Of a stretch of DNA of 21,128 nucleotides, positions 1,739-20,593 are shown piece after piece. Origin of the DNA: a virus. The position numbers were made by a program, and so were the translations under genes. The stretch covers positions 1-21,128 of IMG/VR virus record IMGVR_UViG_3300009104_001449. One strand, 5' to 3'. Positions within the stretch are counted from its first letter, which is position 1. Every line of letters starts with the position of its first letter. The notes under the pieces were generated by a model. That model was not told the origin of the DNA. It searched no databases and saw nothing but the letters and a program-made list of their open reading frames with translations.

Positions 1739-2182
1739 ATGGCAGAACAAAAAAAGAAAGAACATGAAGTTGGTGAAAAGGAATTATTAGAATTAGAACC
1801 AGTAAAAGCTATTGAAATAGAAACTAAGAATCTGGTTGCATCGAGTAGAATTTTTATATACACTATAATTGGATTATTGGTATATTTAATATTTTTTCTT
1901 CTTCCAAATATGGCAGAAAAAATGCATTGGATGGAAAAGGACCTTAATTCTGTTTTAGTTCAATCAGAAAGATTTAAAAAATCAACAAGAGTTTTTGCGA
2001 GAGATCATCAATGTGCAACTTGTCACCTGAGTCCAGATTATCTCCTTCACAATTTGTTGTCAAAATATCCTAGTTTTTCTGATATTAAAGCATTTATGCA
2101 AATAGGACATCAGAGATATTGGACAAGTACAGCACCTATACCAGATGAGGAATTATTAGAAATATATCGAGCATTAAAATGA
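1739..2182 (+). CDS. Membrane-anchored monohaem c-type cytochrome-like protein
   Basis: The 147-residue protein has a charged cytoplasmic N-terminus, one transmembrane helix (about residues 37-56) and a C-terminal domain of about 90 residues. That domain carries a canonical haem c site, C92-A-T-C95-H96. M120 is a plausible second axial ligand, and the protein ends in an amphipathic helix (PDEELLEIYRALK) like the last helix of small c-type cytochromes. The topology would put the haem domain in the periplasm, where host Ccm machinery attaches haem. No other redox protein lies next to it. Its stop overlaps the start of the binding-protein gene (ATGA), so the two are co-translated. A phage-borne c-type cytochrome is unusual. 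A structural CxxCH without haem cannot be excluded from sequence alone. Confidence 0.78.
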   Translation: MAEQKKKEHEVGEKELLELEPVKAIEIETKNLVASSRIFIYTIIGLLVYLIFFLLPNMAEKMHWMEKDLNSVLVQSERFKKSTRVFARDHQCATCHLSPDYLLHNLLSKYPSFSDIKAFMQIGHQRYWTSTAPIPDEELLEIYRALK

Positions 2183-3381
2183 TAGGTAAATTTTTTGTAA
2201 GTTTTGTTTGGATATTTTGGGTAGTAGTAATAGGGTCTGTTGCAGAAGGAACAACATTAAATCCTGCTGTGATAATACCAACGAAAAAGGCAAGTCACTT
2301 ACCTCATGACCATAGTAAGATGACTGATGAGGAAATAGAAGCGGTTAAACAAGAATGGGCAAAACGTAAGGACCCACCCAAACCAGAATATAATCCAACA
2401 TACGGAACGACTCTCGCTCGTGTCAAAGAAAGAGGAGAAGTTATTTGTGGAACAAAAGATGATTTCCCTGGCTTTTCCCAAATGATTTGGGATGATGAAG
2501 ATGGAGATAAGTGGATTGGGCTTGATGTCGATATATGTAGAGCAGTTGCCGCAGCGGTATTTGATGATGCGACAGCGATAAGTTTTGAAGTAGTAGATGG
2601 TAAAACTAGATTCAGTTATTTGATAGATGGTACAATAGATGTTCTTTCGGCAGCAACTACCTATACATTTTCTAGAAATGTTTCAAAGAGATTAGAATTT
2701 TTACCTACAACTTTTTATGATGGTCAAGGATTTATAACTAAAAAAACTTTAGGTGTTTCTTCTGCTAAACAAATGGCAGGTGCTAGAATATGTTTTAGTG
2801 GCACTGGAACAGCAGCGAAAAATATAAAGGACTTTTTTAAAAAACACTTTCTACCCTTTAAACCAATAGAAGTTCCAGTTGGAGAAAAATCAAAAAATTG
2901 GTATTTAGAAGGTAAATGTGATATGTATGGTACGGATAGGTCAGGATTGGCTTCTAATCGTACAGAATTTAAGGATGCAGATTGGCATATAATTCTTCCA
3001 GAAATTATATCCAAAGAACCTCTCGGACCTGTTGTGAAATATGGAGATCAACAATGGTCAGATATTGTTAGATGGACAGTTTTCATTCTATTCATTGCAG
3101 AGGAGTATGGAATTGATTCAAATAATATTGGGAGATTTGCAAATCATAGTGACCCAAAAATTCAAAGATTTATGGGAGAAATAAATGGTAAAGACCATCC
3201 CAATCTTGGAGCTAAATTAGGATTATCCTCAACATGGGCAGTTAGTATAATTGAACAGGTTGGAAATTATAAAGAAATATACGAAAGAAATGTTGGGGAA
3301 AATACTCCACTAGGTTTAGAACGTGGATTGAACAAACTTTACAATCATGGAGGATTATTATACGCACCACCACTTAAATAA
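2179..3381 (+). CDS. aapJ-like: AapJ-like periplasmic general L-amino-acid binding protein
   Basis: The 400-residue protein has a signal peptide (hydrophobic residues 4-20, likely cleavage after SVA). A charged, proline-rich insert follows (about 25-72), then a full family 3 solute-binding domain. Characteristic AapJ/BztA blocks are easily seen: GLDVDICRAVAAAVF, DVLSAATT, FYDGQGF, EISKEPLGP-type, DIVRWT, IIEQVGNY, ERNVG and the C-terminal GGLLYAPP. In bacteria this protein delivers amino acids to the AapQMP permease, but no permease or ATPase gene is present here. It may therefore feed the host transporter. The histidine-bearing insert (HLPHDHS) between signal peptide and domain is atypical as far as I know. 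It is translationally coupled to the cytochrome gene. Confidence 0.92.
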   Translation: MIGKFFVSFVWIFWVVVIGSVAEGTTLNPAVIIPTKKASHLPHDHSKMTDEEIEAVKQEWAKRKDPPKPEYNPTYGTTLARVKERGEVICGTKDDFPGFSQMIWDDEDGDKWIGLDVDICRAVAAAVFDDATAISFEVVDGKTRFSYLIDGTIDVLSAATTYTFSRNVSKRLEFLPTTFYDGQGFITKKTLGVSSAKQMAGARICFSGTGTAAKNIKDFFKKHFLPFKPIEVPVGEKSKNWYLEGKCDMYGTDRSGLASNRTEFKDADWHIILPEIISKEPLGPVVKYGDQQWSDIVRWTVFILFIAEEYGIDSNNIGRFANHSDPKIQRFMGEINGKDHPNLGAKLGLSSTWAVSIIEQVGNYKEIYERNVGENTPLGLERGLNKLYNHGGLLYAPPLK

Positions 3382-8251: not shown

Positions 8252-9069
8252 TGATTGATGAAAATGGAGAACCACAGAATAAAATAGAAGTTCATGAACT
8301 TGGATTCGTAAAACTTCTTGATGTCATGGGTAATGATGAGGAGGTAGAAAATGCTGCTAGGCTCAGTTATGGTACTGGTACACGGAAGGTAAGCCAAACG
8401 CGAAACCTCATTCGCTACTTAATGAGACATAAGCATACATCACCTTTTGAAATGTGTGAAGTTAAATTTCACATAAAACTTCCCATCTTTGTTATGCGAC
8501 AGCTCGTTAGACATAGGACAGCAAGTTTAAACGAGTATTCGGGACGATACTCAATCATGAGTAATGAGTATTATCTGCCTGAGGCTGATTACCTTCAAAA
8601 ACAATCCAAAACAAATAATCAAGGTAGGGATGAAAAACACCCATCGACAGGCCTTTTGCATTATGAATTCAATAGAGTTTATGATAACGCACATATTGCG
8701 TATGAAAATCTATTGGAAGAAGACATAGCAAGAGAGTTGTCGAGGGTCGTACTACCTGTAGCCAATTATACGGAGTGTATATGGAAAATAGACTTACATA
8801 ATTTTTTCCATGTGGTTCACTTACGTGCCGATAGTCATGCTCAACGTGAAATACGAGATTATGCTAACGCGATGTATGAGTTAGTGAAACCACATTTTCC
8901 TCTATGTTGTGAAGCGTTTGAAGATTATATTGTTAATGGTGAAACATTTTCAAAACAAGAAATGGAAGTTATAAAAGACAATCTTAATGGAAGTTGGACT
9001 ATGGACAAATACGGATTGTCAGAACGAGAATCAAAAGAATTTTTAGTAAAGATAGGAGAAAAACAATGA
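8251..9069 (+). CDS. thyX: Flavin-dependent thymidylate synthase ThyX
   Basis: ThyX methylates dUMP to dTMP with FAD and methylenetetrahydrofolate. The 272-residue protein holds the defining RHRT-7-Ser type motif (RHRTASLNEYSGRYS, about residues 87-101), the ARLSYG nucleotide block, the RHKHTSPFE block and a C-terminal AHAQREIR-like helix (DSHAQREIRDYA). I chose ATG 8251, which overlaps the primase stop and has GGAAAG just upstream. A GTG at 8224 would add nine residues but has a poorly spaced ribosome site. It forms an operon with primase and the RNR gene (ATGA overlap at 9066). Confidence 0.95.
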   Translation: MIDENGEPQNKIEVHELGFVKLLDVMGNDEEVENAARLSYGTGTRKVSQTRNLIRYLMRHKHTSPFEMCEVKFHIKLPIFVMRQLVRHRTASLNEYSGRYSIMSNEYYLPEADYLQKQSKTNNQGRDEKHPSTGLLHYEFNRVYDNAHIAYENLLEEDIARELSRVVLPVANYTECIWKIDLHNFFHVVHLRADSHAQREIRDYANAMYELVKPHFPLCCEAFEDYIVNGETFSKQEMEVIKDNLNGSWTMDKYGLSERESKEFLVKIGEKQ

Positions 9070-11006
9070 GATTACCAACCACCTACCAAGAATATATTCA
9101 TCTTTCAAGATACGCACGATGGGATTATACTTTAAAAAGACGAGAAACTTGGGATGAAACAGTAGAACGATATTTTAATTTTTTTGAAGGTTGGTTAGAA
9201 GAGAAACATGAATACAAACTAGAAAACGGACAGAAGGAAGAATTACAAAATGCAGTAAAAGACTTGAAGGTAATGCCATCTATGAGGTGTCTTATGACAG
9301 CTGGTCCGGCATTACAAAAGGAAAATATCGCAGGTTATAATTGTTCCTATATACAGATAGATAGCCAAAGATCGTTTGATGAAATTCTCTATGTTTTAAT
9401 GAACGGAACAGGCGTAGGATTTTCAGTTGAAGAAGAATACACCTCCCAACTACCTGCTATACCAGAAGATTTGTATGATACAGATACAACAGTTGTAGTA
9501 GCAGATTCCAAGTTAGGTTGGGCCAGAGCCTTCAAAGAGCTTATCTCTTTGTTATATGGTGGTCATATTCCAAGATGGGATGTAAGTAAAGTTAGACCGG
9601 CAGGAGCACCTTTAAAGACATTTGGTGGAAGAGCCTCAGGCCCAGATCCATTAATAGATTTATTTAATTTTACTGTAAATACTTTTAAGAATGCAAAGGG
9701 AAGAAAACTACACCCGATAGAATGCCACGATATAGTCTGTAAAACAGCAGAGATAGTGGTTGTGGGTGGTGTTCGGCGAAGTGCTCTTATAAGTTTGTCT
9801 AATCTCAATGATAGAGAAATGAGATTCGCCAAACATGGAGAATGGTTTACACATAATGTACAACGAGCACTTGCTAATAATTCGGTTAATTATAAAGAAA
9901 AACCAGATGTAGGAACTTTCATGAGGGAATGGTTGTCTCTCTATGATTCTAAGTCGGGGGAAAGAGGAATATATAATGGTCTGTCAGCAAAAAGGACTGT
10001 AGAAAGGACAAATGGAAGATACAGAGATAGAGATGGAAATTCTATACGAAGACGAGCTCCCAGAGGAGATTTTGGCACCAATCCGTGCAGCGAGATCATT
10101 CTTCGGTCCCGCGAGTTCTGCAACTTATCTGAAGTCGTTGTCAGACGAGATGACACTCGCGAGTCTCTCCAAGAGAAAGTTAGAAATGCGACTATCCTTG
10201 GCACATTTCAATCAACTCTTACCGAGTTCAAATACCTCTCAAGAGAGTGGAAAAAGAATTGTGACGAAGAAAGATTATTGGGAGTATCGCTTACAGGAAT
10301 AATGGATAATCCTCTTACAAATGGAACTAAAAAGGGATTAGAAGAATTATTGGAAGAATTAAGAGATGTTGCATACGAAACAAACAAAAAATGGGCAGAA
10401 ATACTTGGAATTCCAGTTAGTGCCGCCATTACTTGTGTCAAACCTAGTGGTACTGTTTCTCAGCTTGTTGATAGTGCTTCTGGTATTCATGCCAGGCATA
10501 ATACTCATTATATTAGGACAGTAAGGGCTGATAATAAAGATCCACTTTGTAAGATGATGAAAGAACAGGGGTTTCCACATGAACCCGATATTACAAAGCC
10601 AGAACATACTACTGTATTTTCGTTTCCTATGCAGAGTCCTAAAGGAGCAATCTGTAGAACGGAATTATCAGCAATGAAACAGTTGGAACTCTGGAAAATT
10701 TATGCCACTCATTGGTGTGAGCATAAACCTTCTGTAACTATTTCAGTTAAGGAACAGGAATGGCCAGAAGTTCAGGCTTGGGTGTGGGAAAATTTTGATG
10801 ATATTAGTGGTATTTCATTTTTACCACATTCAGAGCATGTATATCGTCAAGCACCATATCAAGATTGTGATGTAAAAGAATACAAAAAACAGTTGACAGA
10901 AATGCCTAAGAATGTAGATTGGAGCACATTGTCAACATACGAATCACAAGACTATACAGTTGCGAGTCAAGAATTGGCATGTGTGGCTGGTGGTTGTGAA
11001 ATTTAA
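9066..11006 (+). CDS. nrdJ/rtpR: Class II adenosylcobalamin-dependent ribonucleoside-triphosphate reductase (RTPR-type)
   Basis: The 646-residue monomeric-type reductase makes dNTPs from NTPs with a B12 radical. Visible are the redox Cys in YNCSY (C93), the active-site N339-P-C341-S-E343 with thiyl C341, the partner Cys in REFCNLSE (C352) and the GGVRRSA block. The KPSGTVSQLV phosphate-binding segment and a C-terminal redox pair C639-x4-C644 (CVAGGC) are also present. It is shorter than the Lactobacillus enzyme. Start ATG 9066 overlaps the thyX stop and has AGGAG upstream; the earlier ATG at 8994 lies inside thyX and encodes no family residues. A stretch around 10040-10220 uses more G/C-ending codons than the rest. 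The host must supply cobalamin. Confidence 0.95.
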   Translation: MRLPTTYQEYIHLSRYARWDYTLKRRETWDETVERYFNFFEGWLEEKHEYKLENGQKEELQNAVKDLKVMPSMRCLMTAGPALQKENIAGYNCSYIQIDSQRSFDEILYVLMNGTGVGFSVEEEYTSQLPAIPEDLYDTDTTVVVADSKLGWARAFKELISLLYGGHIPRWDVSKVRPAGAPLKTFGGRASGPDPLIDLFNFTVNTFKNAKGRKLHPIECHDIVCKTAEIVVVGGVRRSALISLSNLNDREMRFAKHGEWFTHNVQRALANNSVNYKEKPDVGTFMREWLSLYDSKSGERGIYNGLSAKRTVERTNGRYRDRDGNSIRRRAPRGDFGTNPCSEIILRSREFCNLSEVVVRRDDTRESLQEKVRNATILGTFQSTLTEFKYLSREWKKNCDEERLLGVSLTGIMDNPLTNGTKKGLEELLEELRDVAYETNKKWAEILGIPVSAAITCVKPSGTVSQLVDSASGIHARHNTHYIRTVRADNKDPLCKMMKEQGFPHEPDITKPEHTTVFSFPMQSPKGAICRTELSAMKQLELWKIYATHWCEHKPSVTISVKEQEWPEVQAWVWENFDDISGISFLPHSEHVYRQAPYQDCDVKEYKKQLTEMPKNVDWSTLSTYESQDYTVASQELACVAGGCEI

Positions 11007-11013
11007 GGAAGAG

Positions 11014-11472
11014 ATGAAGTCAGTACTCAAATGGTGGTTAATATTCTGTATTACAGTATTAGGATTACTTACATGCGTATACTTTAATATACATAAAGAA
11101 TTATATGTAGCCGATGTAACTCGATTGAGTTTTTTTATACTTTCTATTTTTATTTGTACCTCAATTTGGATAGGTACAAAAACCTACAAAGTTGGTGTCC
11201 AAGAGGACTATGACCAAAAAAGTAATGTGGGGTGGTTTATTTCTGAATCATGCCTTGCTCTTGGAATGGTAGGAACTGTTACTGGATTTTTAATAATGTT
11301 AAAAACAGCATTTGAAAACGTAGATGTATCAAATTCTGTTACATTACAACAGGCATTGTCAGATATGGCAACAGGGATGAGTACGGCTCTTTGGACTACT
11401 CTGGTTGGATTGGTATGTTCACTTATCATCAAAGTCCAGTTGGTGAATCTTGAAGTAGCACTAAATGAATAA
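11014..11472 (+). CDS. MotA/TolQ/ExbB-family proton-channel-like protein
   Basis: The 152-residue protein has four hydrophobic segments (about 7-25, 37-54, 80-97 and 120-142). The last two bear the family signature: GMVGTVTGFLIM, then MATGMSTALWTTLVGLV with channel-lining threonines. In TolQ/ExbB/MotA this core conducts protons and drives a TolR/ExbD/MotB partner. Such a partner follows directly at 11465, overlapping by 8 bases. The start at 11014 follows AAGGAAGAG; the ATG at 10960 lies inside the RNR gene. The protein is short, with little cytoplasmic domain. The energised target is unknown. Confidence 0.82.
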   Translation: MKSVLKWWLIFCITVLGLLTCVYFNIHKELYVADVTRLSFFILSIFICTSIWIGTKTYKVGVQEDYDQKSNVGWFISESCLALGMVGTVTGFLIMLKTAFENVDVSNSVTLQQALSDMATGMSTALWTTLVGLVCSLIIKVQLVNLEVALNE

Positions 11473-12259
11473 TGAAAAATACAAGTCAACTATTGGTTTT
11501 ACAGATCTGCTTTTTAATATCCTTGTCGGTTTCGCTTTCCTTTTTATTATTGCATTTCTTCTCATAAAACCAGAACAAAAGAAAGCTGACTTTCAACGGA
11601 AGGCTGAATTTGTTGTTGTCATGGAATGGGACCATGACCAGCCAGACGATATAGACCTTTATGTACAAGACCCAACTCAGGCTAAGGTTCATTTTAGATT
11701 ACCTATAACGAACTTTATGTACTTGGATAAAGATGATTTGGGTTATGCAAATGATATTGTAAAACGTGCGGATGGTACAGTAACAAAAGTAAATATTAAT
11801 AGAGAGGTAGTTACTATTCGTGGTATCATTGCTGGCGAATACGTTATTAATGCTCATTATTATTCTTCAAGAGAGTGGTCAAGATTAGGCCAATTGACTA
11901 CTAATGGGGAAATGGGAGAAATGGGTGATACTGTTAATAGTAAAATAGTTAATAACAAAGATGAACCATTAACTGTAAAAATAGAATTACATAAAGTTAC
12001 TCCCTATAAAATTTTATGGGTAGGAGAAAAGAAATTTCATCGTAAAGGACAAGAAGAAACTTTTGTAAGATTTACTATAGATAAAGATGGTGAACTGCTT
12101 GGAGATTTTGAGTATGAAGACAAAAAGTTTGTAGTACCTTATATGCGTTCTGGAATAACAGCCCCAGATATAATAGAAGATGAACCTGACGGGGCAACAA
12201 GGATTGGTACTCATCCTAATGGTGCTGATGATGAATCTCATTCTGAAAGAGGGTGGTAG
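11465..12259 (+). CDS. TolR/ExbD/MotB-like partner with a periplasmic domain
   Basis: The 264-residue protein has one N-terminal transmembrane helix (about 15-34) preceded by an acidic residue in GFTDLLFNILVGF (D14). This is the position of the proton-binding Asp in ExbD/TolR/MotB. The long periplasmic part includes a DIDLYVQDP motif (63-70) and an IAGEYVINAHYYS strand. That resembles the YfaP/DUF2135-type domain (DhDLhVxDP...YxVxVxYY) rather than the OmpA or TolR peptidoglycan domain. The C-terminus is acidic. It overlaps the TolQ-like gene, so the two form a translationally coupled pair, probably a small ion-driven motor or channel. Confidence 0.75.
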   Translation: MNNEKYKSTIGFTDLLFNILVGFAFLFIIAFLLIKPEQKKADFQRKAEFVVVMEWDHDQPDDIDLYVQDPTQAKVHFRLPITNFMYLDKDDLGYANDIVKRADGTVTKVNINREVVTIRGIIAGEYVINAHYYSSREWSRLGQLTTNGEMGEMGDTVNSKIVNNKDEPLTVKIELHKVTPYKILWVGEKKFHRKGQEETFVRFTIDKDGELLGDFEYEDKKFVVPYMRSGITAPDIIEDEPDGATRIGTHPNGADDESHSERGW

Positions 12260-13010: not shown

Positions 13011-14042
13011 ATGATTAAATCGTTTTATGCAACAAAAGAATGGATGACTTGGGCTTATGGGGGTGGTTTAGCACTCATCATATCCCTTTGGTTACAAGTT
13101 CAAATGAGTGTTGCTATTAATGAATGGTATGGTGGATTCTATAATCTTTTACAGAACGCAAAAGATTATGTGGATAAACCACAAGAAGGTATAACACAAT
13201 TATATGACCAATTAATATCTTTACAGTATGTTCTAACAGGATTTGAAGGAAGTCCATCATTTGCTGTGATTGCATTTCCGTATATTGCGTTGGCTATTTT
13301 TACTGGATGGTTCACAAGAATCTATGGGTTGAGATGGCGAGAAGCAATAACATTTAATTATATACCACAATGGCAGGTAGTAGACCAAGAGATTGAGGGT
13401 GCAAGTCAAAGGATACAAGAAGATTGTAATAGATGGGCACGATTAATTGAGTCATTAGGATTACAGGTAGTTCGTGCAATTATGACCTTAATCGCATTTA
13501 TTCCTATACTATGGGGATTTAGTGATAAGGTAGACATTCCGATTATAAGAGACTTTGAAGGTTCTCTAGTTTGGGGAACTCTGATAATTTCACTAGGTGG
13601 TCTCGCAATATCATGGTTTGTTGGATGGAAATTGCCAGGACTAGAATACAATAATCAGCGAGTAGAAGCCGCATTCAGAAAGGACTTAGTACTTGGAGAA
13701 GATGATAAAGCAAATTATGCGCAATCTGATACCCTCGCCGAACTCTTTTTGGGGATCAGATTTAACTACCATCGTCTTTATTTGCATTATGGTTATTTCG
13801 ATTGTTGGGTTACTTTTTATGATCAGTTTATGATCATTGCCCCATATCTTATTATGGGTCCGAGTTTGTTTACTGGAGCAATCACTTTAGGGGTGATGGT
13901 TCAAGTATCAAATGCGTTCAGTAAAGTACATGGTGGATTTGCGTTGTTCTTACATAATTGGACAACAATTACAGAATTACGATCCATTTGGAAACGCCTT
14001 CATGAGTTTGAAGCAAATTTATTAAAATATAGAAAGGTATAA
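13011..14042 (+). CDS. sbmA/bacA-like: SbmA/BacA-like inner-membrane peptide transporter
   Basis: The 343-residue protein matches the SbmA/BacA family closely: EWYGGFYNLLQ, LRWREA, IEGASQRIQEDCNRWA, IMTLIAFIPIL, KLPGLEYNNQRVEAA(F)RKDLV.GEDD, FNYHRLYLHY and ITLGVMVQVSNAF. Several hydrophobic helices are evident. E. coli SbmA has about 406 residues and takes up peptides such as microcins using the proton gradient; relatives also move cobalamin. This copy lacks about 60 N-terminal residues but begins with its own start and ribosome site (AAAGG), and the conserved core is intact. A link to the B12-dependent RNR is an attractive guess but not shown. Confidence 0.92.
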   Translation: MIKSFYATKEWMTWAYGGGLALIISLWLQVQMSVAINEWYGGFYNLLQNAKDYVDKPQEGITQLYDQLISLQYVLTGFEGSPSFAVIAFPYIALAIFTGWFTRIYGLRWREAITFNYIPQWQVVDQEIEGASQRIQEDCNRWARLIESLGLQVVRAIMTLIAFIPILWGFSDKVDIPIIRDFEGSLVWGTLIISLGGLAISWFVGWKLPGLEYNNQRVEAAFRKDLVLGEDDKANYAQSDTLAELFLGIRFNYHRLYLHYGYFDCWVTFYDQFMIIAPYLIMGPSLFTGAITLGVMVQVSNAFSKVHGGFALFLHNWTTITELRSIWKRLHEFEANLLKYRKV

Positions 14043-15320: not shown

Positions 15321-16442
15321 ATGAAAAATATCAAATTTTATAGTTTGATATGTTTTTTTACATTATTCGTTTTTTCACTTAACATATCAGCACAACCAGC
15401 AGATAATGAACTGATTGTTGCTAAGGATGTTGTAAAATTTCAATCTGTTATCAAAAGGGTTAAAAAGTCAGTAGTACTACTGTCTATGAACCCTAATGCT
15501 AATCCAGATACAGACCCAACCAAGTCAGGCCTTTGTTCTGGTGTAGTTATTAATGAGATTGGACACGTTCTTACGAATTATCATTGTGTACATAAACAAA
15601 ATTATCTTAGATTATTTTATTATGATGAAGATGATTGGCAAACTTATGAGGTAAAGACGATTGGTATAGACCCACTCGCAGATTTAGCTCTACTTGAGGT
15701 TACAGATAAAGAAGAACCTATCCCATACCTTGAGTTTTCAGATGAAGAACCAGAAGAAGGACAAGAAGTTTTCGCATTAGGGCACCCTATGGGTATGGCC
15801 TGGACTATAACAAAAGGAATTATTTCCAGTACTGAAAGATATGCAAGACATCCCTTTATTAAAGCACTTCAAACTGATGCCGCTATAAATAAAGGAAACT
15901 CTGGCGGTCCTCTCATGAATATGCGGGGTGAGATTGTAGGAATTAATGCATTAATTGTTTCTAGAATTTCTGAAAATGCGGGAGTTGGATTAGCGATTAG
16001 GGGTGATATTGTGGAAACCTCTGTAAAAACTATGTTATCTTCTGGAAAAGTTGATAGACCAGCTATTGGTATTATGATTATGCCTCTGCTTAGTTCAAAA
16101 CAGAGAGATGCTATATTAAAAGAATTTCCTAAACTCAAATCAGAATTTGTTCCTAATACGTTTGGGATATTTGTAAGACCATCAGACGATTTACCGAATG
16201 GTTTGAAAAAATATGATACTATTATCGCAATCAATGATGAAATGATTAATAGCAGTTTACAATTTTCAGATGAAATATATAAGTATGGCATAGGTGAGAT
16301 GATTACCCTGACAGTTGTACGAAAAAGAAGATTTTTGAAAGTGGATGTTCCATTGAAAGTCTTTACTGTAGATACAAAATTATTGTATCCAGAACAGAGT
16401 ATGCCATCATTAACTCCAAAACGATTGCCGAGGAAACCATAA
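15321..16442 (+). CDS. Periplasmic HtrA/DegP-like serine protease
   Basis: The 373-residue protein starts with a signal peptide (cleavage near NISAQ). A trypsin-fold protease domain follows with catalytic H88 (LTNYHCV), D121 (DPLADLALL) and S194 (GNSGGP), all in the HtrA context (ALGHPMG, TKGIIS, QTDAAINKGNSGGP, VGLAI). One PDZ-like domain follows (about 245-350). HtrA proteases degrade or refold damaged envelope proteins. A phage copy could guard the phage's own envelope proteins or process host ones. The triad is complete, so an active enzyme is likely. Confidence 0.92.
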   Translation: MKNIKFYSLICFFTLFVFSLNISAQPADNELIVAKDVVKFQSVIKRVKKSVVLLSMNPNANPDTDPTKSGLCSGVVINEIGHVLTNYHCVHKQNYLRLFYYDEDDWQTYEVKTIGIDPLADLALLEVTDKEEPIPYLEFSDEEPEEGQEVFALGHPMGMAWTITKGIISSTERYARHPFIKALQTDAAINKGNSGGPLMNMRGEIVGINALIVSRISENAGVGLAIRGDIVETSVKTMLSSGKVDRPAIGIMIMPLLSSKQRDAILKEFPKLKSEFVPNTFGIFVRPSDDLPNGLKKYDTIIAINDEMINSSLQFSDEIYKYGIGEMITLTVVRKRRFLKVDVPLKVFTVDTKLLYPEQSMPSLTPKRLPRKP

Positions 16443-18955: not shown

Positions 18956-19405
18956 ATGGAATTATTTCAAAAAATAGATTTCACATCTCATTCTGGACTA
19001 GACTTGAAATGGAAAATAGAAATGGATGCACTCTCTCATAAAGAGTGGGAGTGTATAGCACAAATGATTATAGAACTGTCACATCCATTTAGAGAAGCAG
19101 TTGGAATTCCTAGAGGTGGTAATATATTAGGTAAGTTATTAAATCTACATGGAACAGGAAAAAGAGAAGACCCAATATGTATTGTTGATGATGTTCTTAC
19201 TACTGGTGGTTCAATGAACGAATTCAAAAGGAAAAGACATTGGAGAAATCCTACTAATTACATAGGATGGGTAGTATTTGCAAGAGCGAAGTGTCCAGAT
19301 TGGGTAACTGCTCTTTTTCAAATGCCGTTTTCTATAGATAGTATAGACTATGACATGACGCATTATGCTAAGGAGTATGAAGATTATGGTGATGGAGCTT
19401 ATTAA
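18956..19405 (+). CDS. Type I phosphoribosyltransferase-like protein
   Basis: The 149-residue protein carries the PRPP-binding motif CIVDDVLTTGGSM (75-87) and the preceding AVGIPRGGNIL loop typical of the orotate/xanthine type I PRTase fold. The hood region that sets base specificity is too divergent to assign. A nucleotide-salvage or regulatory role fits the phage's investment in dNTP supply. The stop overlaps the next ATG (TTAATGG). Confidence 0.8.
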   Translation: MELFQKIDFTSHSGLDLKWKIEMDALSHKEWECIAQMIIELSHPFREAVGIPRGGNILGKLLNLHGTGKREDPICIVDDVLTTGGSMNEFKRKRHWRNPTNYIGWVVFARAKCPDWVTALFQMPFSIDSIDYDMTHYAKEYEDYGDGAY

Positions 19406-19812
19406 TGGCATCACATAGACCTTCACCACCAGCACCATGGCCAATATTAAGAATAACCGAAAAGGCAAGTGAAGTATTTTTAGAGTCATTAGAAGCTGAA
19501 GGATTAGACCCAGAGAAAACCTACTTACGAATAGGAGCAGAGCCTGGAGGTTGTTCTGGATGGAAATTTACACTTGGAACTGAGGATACGATAGACCCAA
19601 CAGATTCGTTATTTGATGCCCATAACGTACAAATGGTTATTGATACAGAGCAACTTGAATCTGTTATAGGTTCATTGGAAGTAGACTATGTAACTGACAA
19701 TTTGGTTGAACAGGGATTTATATTTAATAGATTAGGAACTGGTGAGAAGTGTGGATGTGGAGAGTCTTTTGTACCATTAGGGTCTAATAAACCTCTTGGT
19801 TGGGACCATTGA
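19405..19812 (+). CDS. A-type Fe-S cluster carrier (IscA/ErpA/HesB-like)
   Basis: The 135-residue protein has the three A-type cluster ligands, C50 (EPGGCSGWKF) and C116-G-C118 (EKCGCGESF), plus the ITEKA start and the LEVDYVTD-type block of the HesB family. These proteins deliver Fe-S clusters to apo-enzymes. As a phage gene it could maintain host Fe-S proteins during infection. The Pro-rich N-terminal extension and GSNKPLGWDH tail are extra. Confidence 0.92.
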   Translation: MASHRPSPPAPWPILRITEKASEVFLESLEAEGLDPEKTYLRIGAEPGGCSGWKFTLGTEDTIDPTDSLFDAHNVQMVIDTEQLESVIGSLEVDYVTDNLVEQGFIFNRLGTGEKCGCGESFVPLGSNKPLGWDH

Positions 19813-19952
19813 ATATTAGAGTATACATTAAGGGAGAACTTTACGCCAAGGGTACGAATATGAAAAAGATTCTCAATTTTGTTGGTCAGAAGTTCAAAGA
19901 AGGACATACAGATATTATTATTTCAGGTGGTAAAATAGGATCTTGGAGATAA
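19809..19952 (+). CDS. Candidate 47-residue protein with TTG start
   Basis: A TTG at 19809 overlaps the Fe-S carrier stop (TTGA). The frame reads MNIRVYIKGELYAKG, then NMKKILNFVGQKFKEGH and DIIISGGKIGSWR, a believable beta-alpha-beta small phage protein. An alternative ATG at 19860 with AAGGG upstream would give only 30 residues. The frame ends 2 bases before the speD ATG. Without it, bases 19813-19954 hold no gene. Confidence 0.5.
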   Translation: MNIRVYIKGELYAKGTNMKKILNFVGQKFKEGHTDIIISGGKIGSWR

Positions 19953-19954
19953 TA

Positions 19955-20347
19955 ATGCCAGAACACAAACACATAGTTATTAGAGCAAAAGTACTTGAAC
20001 CAATAACCTCAGAAAAAGTACTCAAGAAGTGGCTCAAAGATTTGACAAAAATAATAAAGATGAAAATCATTAAAGGGCCATATGCCTCGTATGTGACTAA
20101 GGATGGTAATCGAGGAATAACAGGAATAGTGATGATTGAAACAAGTCACATCGCTATTCATATTTGGGATGAAGAATCTCCCGCGTTGGTTCAATGTGAT
20201 GTATATTCCTGTGCTGAATTTCAGCGAGGTGAAGTGATAATGCATTTAGGTTCAATGAAACCTAAAATGATAGAGTACATGATGATGGATAGATCTAAAG
20301 AAATATCCTGTGAATCAGTACAAACACACTTTCACACTCAAACATAG
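19955..20347 (+). CDS. speD: S-adenosylmethionine decarboxylase-like protein (SpeD family)
   Basis: The 130-residue pyruvoyl-enzyme family member shows the core TSHIAIHIWDE with S64 (self-cleaving pyruvoyl precursor), H69 and C86 (VYSC), matching the Ser/His/Cys trio of bacterial SpeD. AdoMet decarboxylase makes the aminopropyl donor for spermidine; marine T4-like cyanophages also carry speD. The residue before S64 is Thr instead of the usual Glu, and two residues are added before C86. Some SpeD relatives decarboxylate ornithine or arginine instead, so the substrate is not settled. ATG 19955 with GGAGAT upstream is preferred over the TTG at 19943. Confidence 0.88.
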   Translation: MPEHKHIVIRAKVLEPITSEKVLKKWLKDLTKIIKMKIIKGPYASYVTKDGNRGITGIVMIETSHIAIHIWDEESPALVQCDVYSCAEFQRGEVIMHLGSMKPKMIEYMMMDRSKEISCESVQTHFHTQT

Positions 20348-20353
20348 GATAAT

Positions 20354-20593
20354 ATGTATTTAATAAGATATTGTGGTCAATGAAACTATAGACCACAGGC
20401 CGAAAGTCTTTCGGCTGCAATAAACAATAGTTTACTAGATACTTGCGAAATAGAAGAAGGTAAAACAGGTCAGTTTGAAGTATTTCGTAGTGGAGACTCA
20501 TTCTTAAAGGGTGGTCATGGAACATTCTTTACTATAGAAGATGTAAAAGAAAAGTTGAAAGGTATAGAAAATGCACATGAACAAGATTATTAA
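20354..20593 (+). CDS. selW-like: SelW-like (Rdx-family) selenoprotein with in-frame UGA selenocysteine codon
   Basis: Reading the TGA at 20381-20383 as selenocysteine gives 79 residues. The start is MYLIRYCGQ-U-NYRPQAESL, followed by TGQFEVFRSG, a GGHGTFF segment and EDVKEKLKGI. This is the thioredoxin-like Rdx fold of SelW/SelT/SelH: beta1, C-x-x-U (C7, U10), helix with Tyr-x-Pro-x-Ala, G-x-TG-x-FEV strand, G-x-F and a final helix. The downstream hairpin is a fitting bacterial SECIS. The downstream frame is open to the TAA at 20591 and overlaps the holin gene by 23 bases. AGGAT precedes the ATG. Without recoding only a 9-residue peptide would be made. SelW proteins are thiol/selenol redox proteins; the partner is unknown. 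Confidence 0.92.
20381..20416 (+). promoter_or_regulatory. Selenocysteine UGA codon plus bacterial-type SECIS hairpin
   Basis: After the TGA (20381-20383) and a 15-base spacer comes a perfect 7-bp stem, GCCGAAA (20399-20405) with TTTCGGC (20409-20415), and loop GTC. A G-U pair (20398/20416) can extend it. With the inner A-T pair opened the loop is AGTCT, much like the GGUCU part of the E. coli fdhF loop. A G at the first or second loop position and 21-22 bases between UGA and loop meet the known bacterial SECIS rules. It lacks a T-run, so it is not a terminator. Confidence 0.88.

Follow-up and report, generated by a model that had tools for sequence, protein, structure and literature searches.

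An open reading frame in a viral genome fragment raises the question whether an in-frame UGA codon terminates translation or encodes selenocysteine (Sec). The frame encodes a SelW-like protein and lies in IMG/VR record IMGVR_UViG_3300009104_001449. All 21,128 nucleotides of it were analysed and are called the window below. The TGA at codon 10 is the sole break in the frame. Sequence comparisons indicate that this UGA, in a gene of a marine, probably T4-like virus of bacteria, is almost certainly read as selenocysteine. Our preferred reading, to which we assign a probability of about 0.93, is that the gene encodes a SelW-like phage selenoprotein, with UGA at codon 10 specifying Sec through the host machinery and an in-frame SECIS element. 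The features of the locus are listed in the table.

Features of the SelW locus and of neighbouring genes in the window
Feature	Position	Strand	Details and evidence
SelW/Rdx-like gene with putative Sec	20354..20593	+	79 codons, UGA at codon 10, TAA stop; frame, PF10262, viral relatives, fold
UGA, putative Sec codon (U of CxxU)	20381..20383	+	TGA in 60/65 contigs, Cys in 0, deleted in 5
Shine-Dalgarno-like AGGA	20346..20349	+	sequence; ATG of the SelW gene 4 nt further on
Candidate bacterial-type SECIS hairpin	20399..20415	+	7-bp stem, loop GTC, invariant G at 20406; covariation, codon constraint, synonymous-codon null
AdoMet decarboxylase, directly upstream of SelW	19955..20347	+	PF02675, 50.7 bits; phrog_3125; 6-nt gap to SelW
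A-type Fe-S cluster carrier, IscA-like	19405..19812	+	PF01521; TIGR00049, 71.1 bits
Class II (B12) ribonucleotide reductase ending in CxxxxC	8994..11006	+	phrog_367, 612 bits; TIGR02505, 285 bits (below cut-off 340)

The SelW-like protein and conservation of the UGA codon

With UGA translated, the frame yields a product of 79 residues, MYLIRYCGQUNYRPQAESLSAAINNSLLDTCEIEEGKTGQFEVFRSGDSFLKGGHGTFFTIEDVKEKLKGIENAHEQDY. The redox motif C7-G-Q-U10 directly follows the strand formed by residues 2-6 in the AlphaFold model, and is the CxxU/CxxC motif of the Rdx/SelW family. The preliminary description had placed the TGA at the second position of this motif. The in-frame TGA indeed corresponds to U, which closes the CxxU motif, so that the earlier wording was somewhat loose. 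When the Rdx profile PF10262 was compared with the read-through protein, as had been suggested there, the score was 30.4 bits, above the curated cut-off of 22.6; the NCBIfam subfamily TIGR02174 scored 27.9 bits, under its cut-off of 34.2. Rdx was matched by all 24 members of our alignment A3 of this family with E-values of 0.1 or better. A profile of the relatives retrieved MIEN1/C17orf37 and the SelW-related structures 2p0g and 2fa8 among PDB sequences and, weakly, mouse SelW (2npb). The model of the window protein has a pLDDT of 83, and its top Foldseek matches in the PDB are 2ojl, 2fa8, 2p0g, 2oka and 2obk (E-values 1e-4 to 1e-3, TM 0.60-0.74). Its predicted fold thus matches the thioredoxin-like, SelW-type fold. 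The redox function is suggested by family membership.

Searches of viral contigs identified 63 other contigs encoding the same protein, and a genome search added one contig from a metagenome-assembled genome (MAG). Together with the window this makes 65 contigs, and TGA occupies the same codon in 60 of them; the codon is deleted in five and replaced by a cysteine codon in none. One of the viral-contig searches used patterns downstream of the UGA, and was therefore blind to that codon. The set of 45 contigs obtained in this way contains 40 with TGA, five with in-frame 6-nt deletions, and none with Cys. The DNA pattern CxxUNYxP[QH]A matched 53 viral stretches, of which 51 are real SelW genes; its cysteine version matched only two stretches of viral contigs, both by chance and in unrelated frames. 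A relaxed Sec pattern added one more SelW, of cellular type (L189). Cellular Sec-containing homologues of SelW have Sec at the homologous position. No match to the SelW protein was found by tblastn in deposited phage genomes.

The sequence following the UGA is conserved as well. In ungapped comparisons with the window, the nearest relatives L002, L003 and L019 differ after the UGA at 5/5/22, 5/4/20 and 9/6/32 first, second and third codon positions, respectively, and 36 pairs from another group gave 197/132/329. This excess of third-position changes implies that the post-UGA sequence is translated and is under purifying selection, which is the opposite of a conserved stop followed by unconserved sequence, named at the outset as an observation that would speak against Sec.

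The five contigs with the deletion (L014, L015, L016, L018, L050) lack two codons at the Sec site. They form one supported clade (97/89) nested among the Sec forms, and thus the simplest account is a single loss of Sec through an in-frame deletion of 6 nt. The codon was deleted rather than switched to cysteine, and Cys7 and Cys31 are retained. The hairpin downstream does not show clear decay in this clade: 4 of 7 pairs can form in L014-L016 and 6 of 7 in L018 and L050. As these five contigs have lost the codon, Sec is not indispensable for this protein, and the clade provides a natural test of what Sec contributes to SelW.

The hairpin downstream of the UGA codon

A perfect hairpin with a G in the apical loop had been reported to start 15 bases after the TGA, and the sequence agrees with this. 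The stem is formed by pairing of positions 20399-20405 with 20409-20415 around the loop at 20406-20408 (GCCGAAA-GTC-TTTCGGC). The spacing between the UGA and the stem is 15 nt, and the loop G lies 23 nt past the UGA.

The stem covaries among the relatives, and the loop G is invariant; a lack of covariation had been named at the outset as an observation against Sec. The 7-bp stem was scored in 37 distinct sequences downstream of the UGA. Pairing holds in 91.5% of the cells, and both sides of the stem are changed in 21 cells, as compared to 5.7 in shuffles. The covariation value of 0.303 falls to 0.134 on shuffling and does not exceed 0.134 when the stem is slid. The observed number of pairs is 6.4 of 7, against 4.0 of 7 with synonymous shuffling. 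Where residue 18, whose codon overlaps the loop, is a serine, it is encoded by AGT in 34 of 34 cases and never by TCN, whereas the serines at residues 9 and 20 use TCN. This points to a constraint acting on the RNA and not on the protein.

L077 and L080, which are the most divergent relatives, could still form a hairpin at this position, with 6 of 7 pairs and a different stem sequence, although their minimum-energy folds are different. The stems of some relatives contain mismatches: L031, for instance, retains 4 of the 7 aligned pairs, and L002 and L021 likewise have 4 of 7 without gaps, although L002 folds with a bulge. An Rfam search produced no SECIS match, and a weak match to preQ1-II (E-value 0.92) was dismissed as chance.

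The following mechanism may be proposed. The in-frame bacterial-type SECIS, 15 nt past the UGA, would direct SelB and tRNA-Sec of the host, and the host components SelA, SelB, SelD and tRNA-Sec would decode UGA at codon 10 as Sec. The product would be a 79-residue protein of the thioredoxin fold with a Cys-x-x-Sec redox site. During infection, it could take part in selenol/thiol redox reactions, such as the reduction of phage or host thiol proteins. The class II ribonucleotide reductase (RNR) of the phage is a conceivable, though rather unlikely, client; perhaps the protein supports Fe-S or thiol homeostasis instead. More than 50 related virus contigs keep both the UGA and the hairpin behind it, which suggests that these phages produce selenoproteins and need hosts capable of inserting selenium. 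The original claim that this virus makes a selenoprotein is supported: the conserved recoded frame, the covarying hairpin, the family, the fold and the location in T4-like phage contigs are observed, and from them Sec insertion, the redox role and a Sec-decoding host are inferred.

Phage origin, host and alternative readings

The window encodes the phage DNA primase, RuvC-like resolvase, ThyX and RNR families of PHROGs (NCBIfam profiles were also run). It is a 21-kb fragment that does not include the gene of the major capsid protein Gp23, and its probable placement among T4-like phages is based on these families and on the gene order around SelW, which is common to related contigs. Two of the latter carry T4 Gp23 together with a Sec-SelW gene (L082 and L086, 449 and 443 bits). 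The AdoMet decarboxylase gene and the SelW gene are probably co-transcribed. The true start of the RNR may be further 3' than the position given in the table. Genes for RNR and glutaredoxin-like proteins lie at most 5 kb from SelW in related contigs, as judged by the names of representative sequences and by the RNR of the window.

The preliminary description held that either the host decodes Sec or the phage carries the machinery elsewhere. Neither SelB, nor SelD, nor a tRNA-Sec scoring over the cut-off was found in 24 virus records, most of which are fragments, so the second part received no support, and the host presumably decodes Sec. Weaker tRNA-Sec matches in the phage records were discarded, as control genomes give matches of the same kind. 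Host bins were also to be checked for selB and selC. One relative (L094) is located in the Chloroflexi MAG NAT137 (G016), which has the full Sec machinery: SelA (533 bits), SelB (319), SelD with its own UGA (361) and tRNA-Sec (61.8). NAT137 also has a Sec-SelW gene on a different contig. In its order, SelB is over the cut-off in 132 of 147 genomes, and Rdx is found in 113 of 147, most with one TGA among the matches listed. However, the L094 contig appears to be a phage fragment, with GC content of 0.32, as opposed to 0.38-0.43 at other loci of the MAG, and the transporter SbmA, which it encodes, occurs in only two of 59 genomes of the order, one of these occurrences being this very contig. Hence co-binning is a real possibility, and we rejected this MAG as a proven host.

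The same MAG could suggest that the contigs are bacterial and the gene is an ordinary marine SelW-like selenoprotein, the more so because this is the commonest selenoprotein family in ocean metagenomes (PMC2398784). We find this hardly credible given the phage primase, ThyX, RNR and resolvase of the window, Gp23 on two Sec-SelW contigs, the shared gene order, and the phage-like character of the MAG contig itself. A decaying pseudogene or a sequencing error at the TGA, with only a 9-residue peptide made, would agree with the stop read by standard annotation at codon 10 and with the five relatives devoid of the codon. Its probability is practically negligible, as the same TGA is present in 60 contigs from many samples, purifying selection extends past it, and the hairpin is conserved.

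Another possibility is a protein devoid of selenium, made through suppression of UGA by a near-cognate tRNA (tryptophan or other) or through reassignment of the codon. Leaky UGA readthrough occurs in bacteria, and the downstream hairpin could also favour plain readthrough. However, UGA otherwise functions as a normal stop in the window, in which 13 of 35 genes end with TGA, and the 156 uses of TGG contrast with this single TGA. Moreover, SelW proteins have their Sec at precisely this site, where TGG, TAG, TAA or a cysteine codon never occurs among the relatives, and the invariant loop G is a typical feature of bacterial SECIS elements. Other UGA-recoded genes were sought in related contigs, and the matches listed contain, besides SelW, only antisense shadows and gene junctions. 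We consider suppression or reassignment very unlikely, and retain decoding as Sec.

Relation to known selenoproteins and other genes of the contigs

SelW-like proteins are a leading selenoprotein family in marine surveys (Zhang et al. 2005, PMC1088965; 2008, PMC2398784). The proteins described there share with the phage protein the CxxU motif, the Rdx family and a bacterial SECIS past the UGA with a G in a small apical loop. However, phages are absent from these papers, which attribute the genes to bacteria, whereas the gene considered here resides in T4-like phage contigs. A part of the published marine SelW-like reads may represent phage genes. The Sec-SelW proteins of NAT137 and its order (L113, L130) are similar in sequence (IxYCVPUDYVPQAVSL as compared to IKYCGSUNYRPQAESL) and have a similarly placed hairpin, but their genes, unlike the phage gene, are chromosomal. 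In the tree, the phage proteins are set apart from the sampled cellular ones with weak support (79/92), other phyla being outside the sample.

Known viral selenoproteins are the glutathione peroxidases of poxviruses, molluscum contagiosum and fowlpox (PMC8310308). These are likewise virus-encoded selenoproteins of redox type relying on the Sec machinery of the host, but they belong to eukaryotic viruses and to another protein family, and use a eukaryotic SECIS. A link between phages and selenocysteine has also been claimed for huge wastewater phages with annotated tRNA-Sec (PMC10747093), a paper in which the word selenoprotein is absent; in the phages considered here, no tRNA-Sec match exceeds the cut-off. 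A 2026 review of prokaryotic selenoproteomes (PMC13188914) contains neither the word phage nor the word virus. Our search of the open-licence literature turned up no previous description of a phage selenoprotein, although priority is not certain.

If the UGA is read as Sec, infected cells acquire selenoproteins from phages, the phage SelW genes lose all but their first 9 codons in standard annotation, some of the selenoproteins counted in marine surveys may be viral, and selenium metabolism of the host is a factor in phage host range. A tentative broader scenario, which we regard as possible rather than probable, is that widespread marine T4-like phages have long kept a Sec-SelW whose need for Sec decoding by the host limits their host range, that one clade has escaped this limit by deleting the UGA, and that a part of the ocean SelW-like pool is viral.

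Several other genes were observed on the plus strand of the window. Between the IscA-like and AdoMet decarboxylase genes, inspection by eye revealed a possible small protein of 47 residues (19809-19952), with a TTG start overlapping the IscA stop. The gene at 3403-3999 matches the Pycsar effector PycTM (PF18967, 78 bits, cut-off 27; PADLOC PycTM, 56 bits), and its product is possibly involved in inter-phage defence or is a membrane protein of other use. An SbmA/BacA-type inner-membrane transporter is encoded at 13011-14042 (PF05992, 394 bits; PRK12369, 469 bits), with homologues in several related contigs (cluster 28) and in the phage contig of the MAG. An amino-acid ABC-transporter substrate-binding protein (PF00497) is encoded at 2179-3381, and other subunits of the transporter were not noticed. 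The region 10960-12259 contains a MotA/TolQ/ExbB-like gene (PF01618), followed by an unmatched membrane-anchored protein, with weak ZorA-like PADLOC matches. The product of 15321-16442 is an HtrA/DegP-like protease with trypsin and PDZ domains and a signal-like N terminus. Finally, tryptophan halogenase-like genes (phrog_2928) were found on two SelW-bearing phage contigs, L177 (10116-11261) and L179 (7986-9635).
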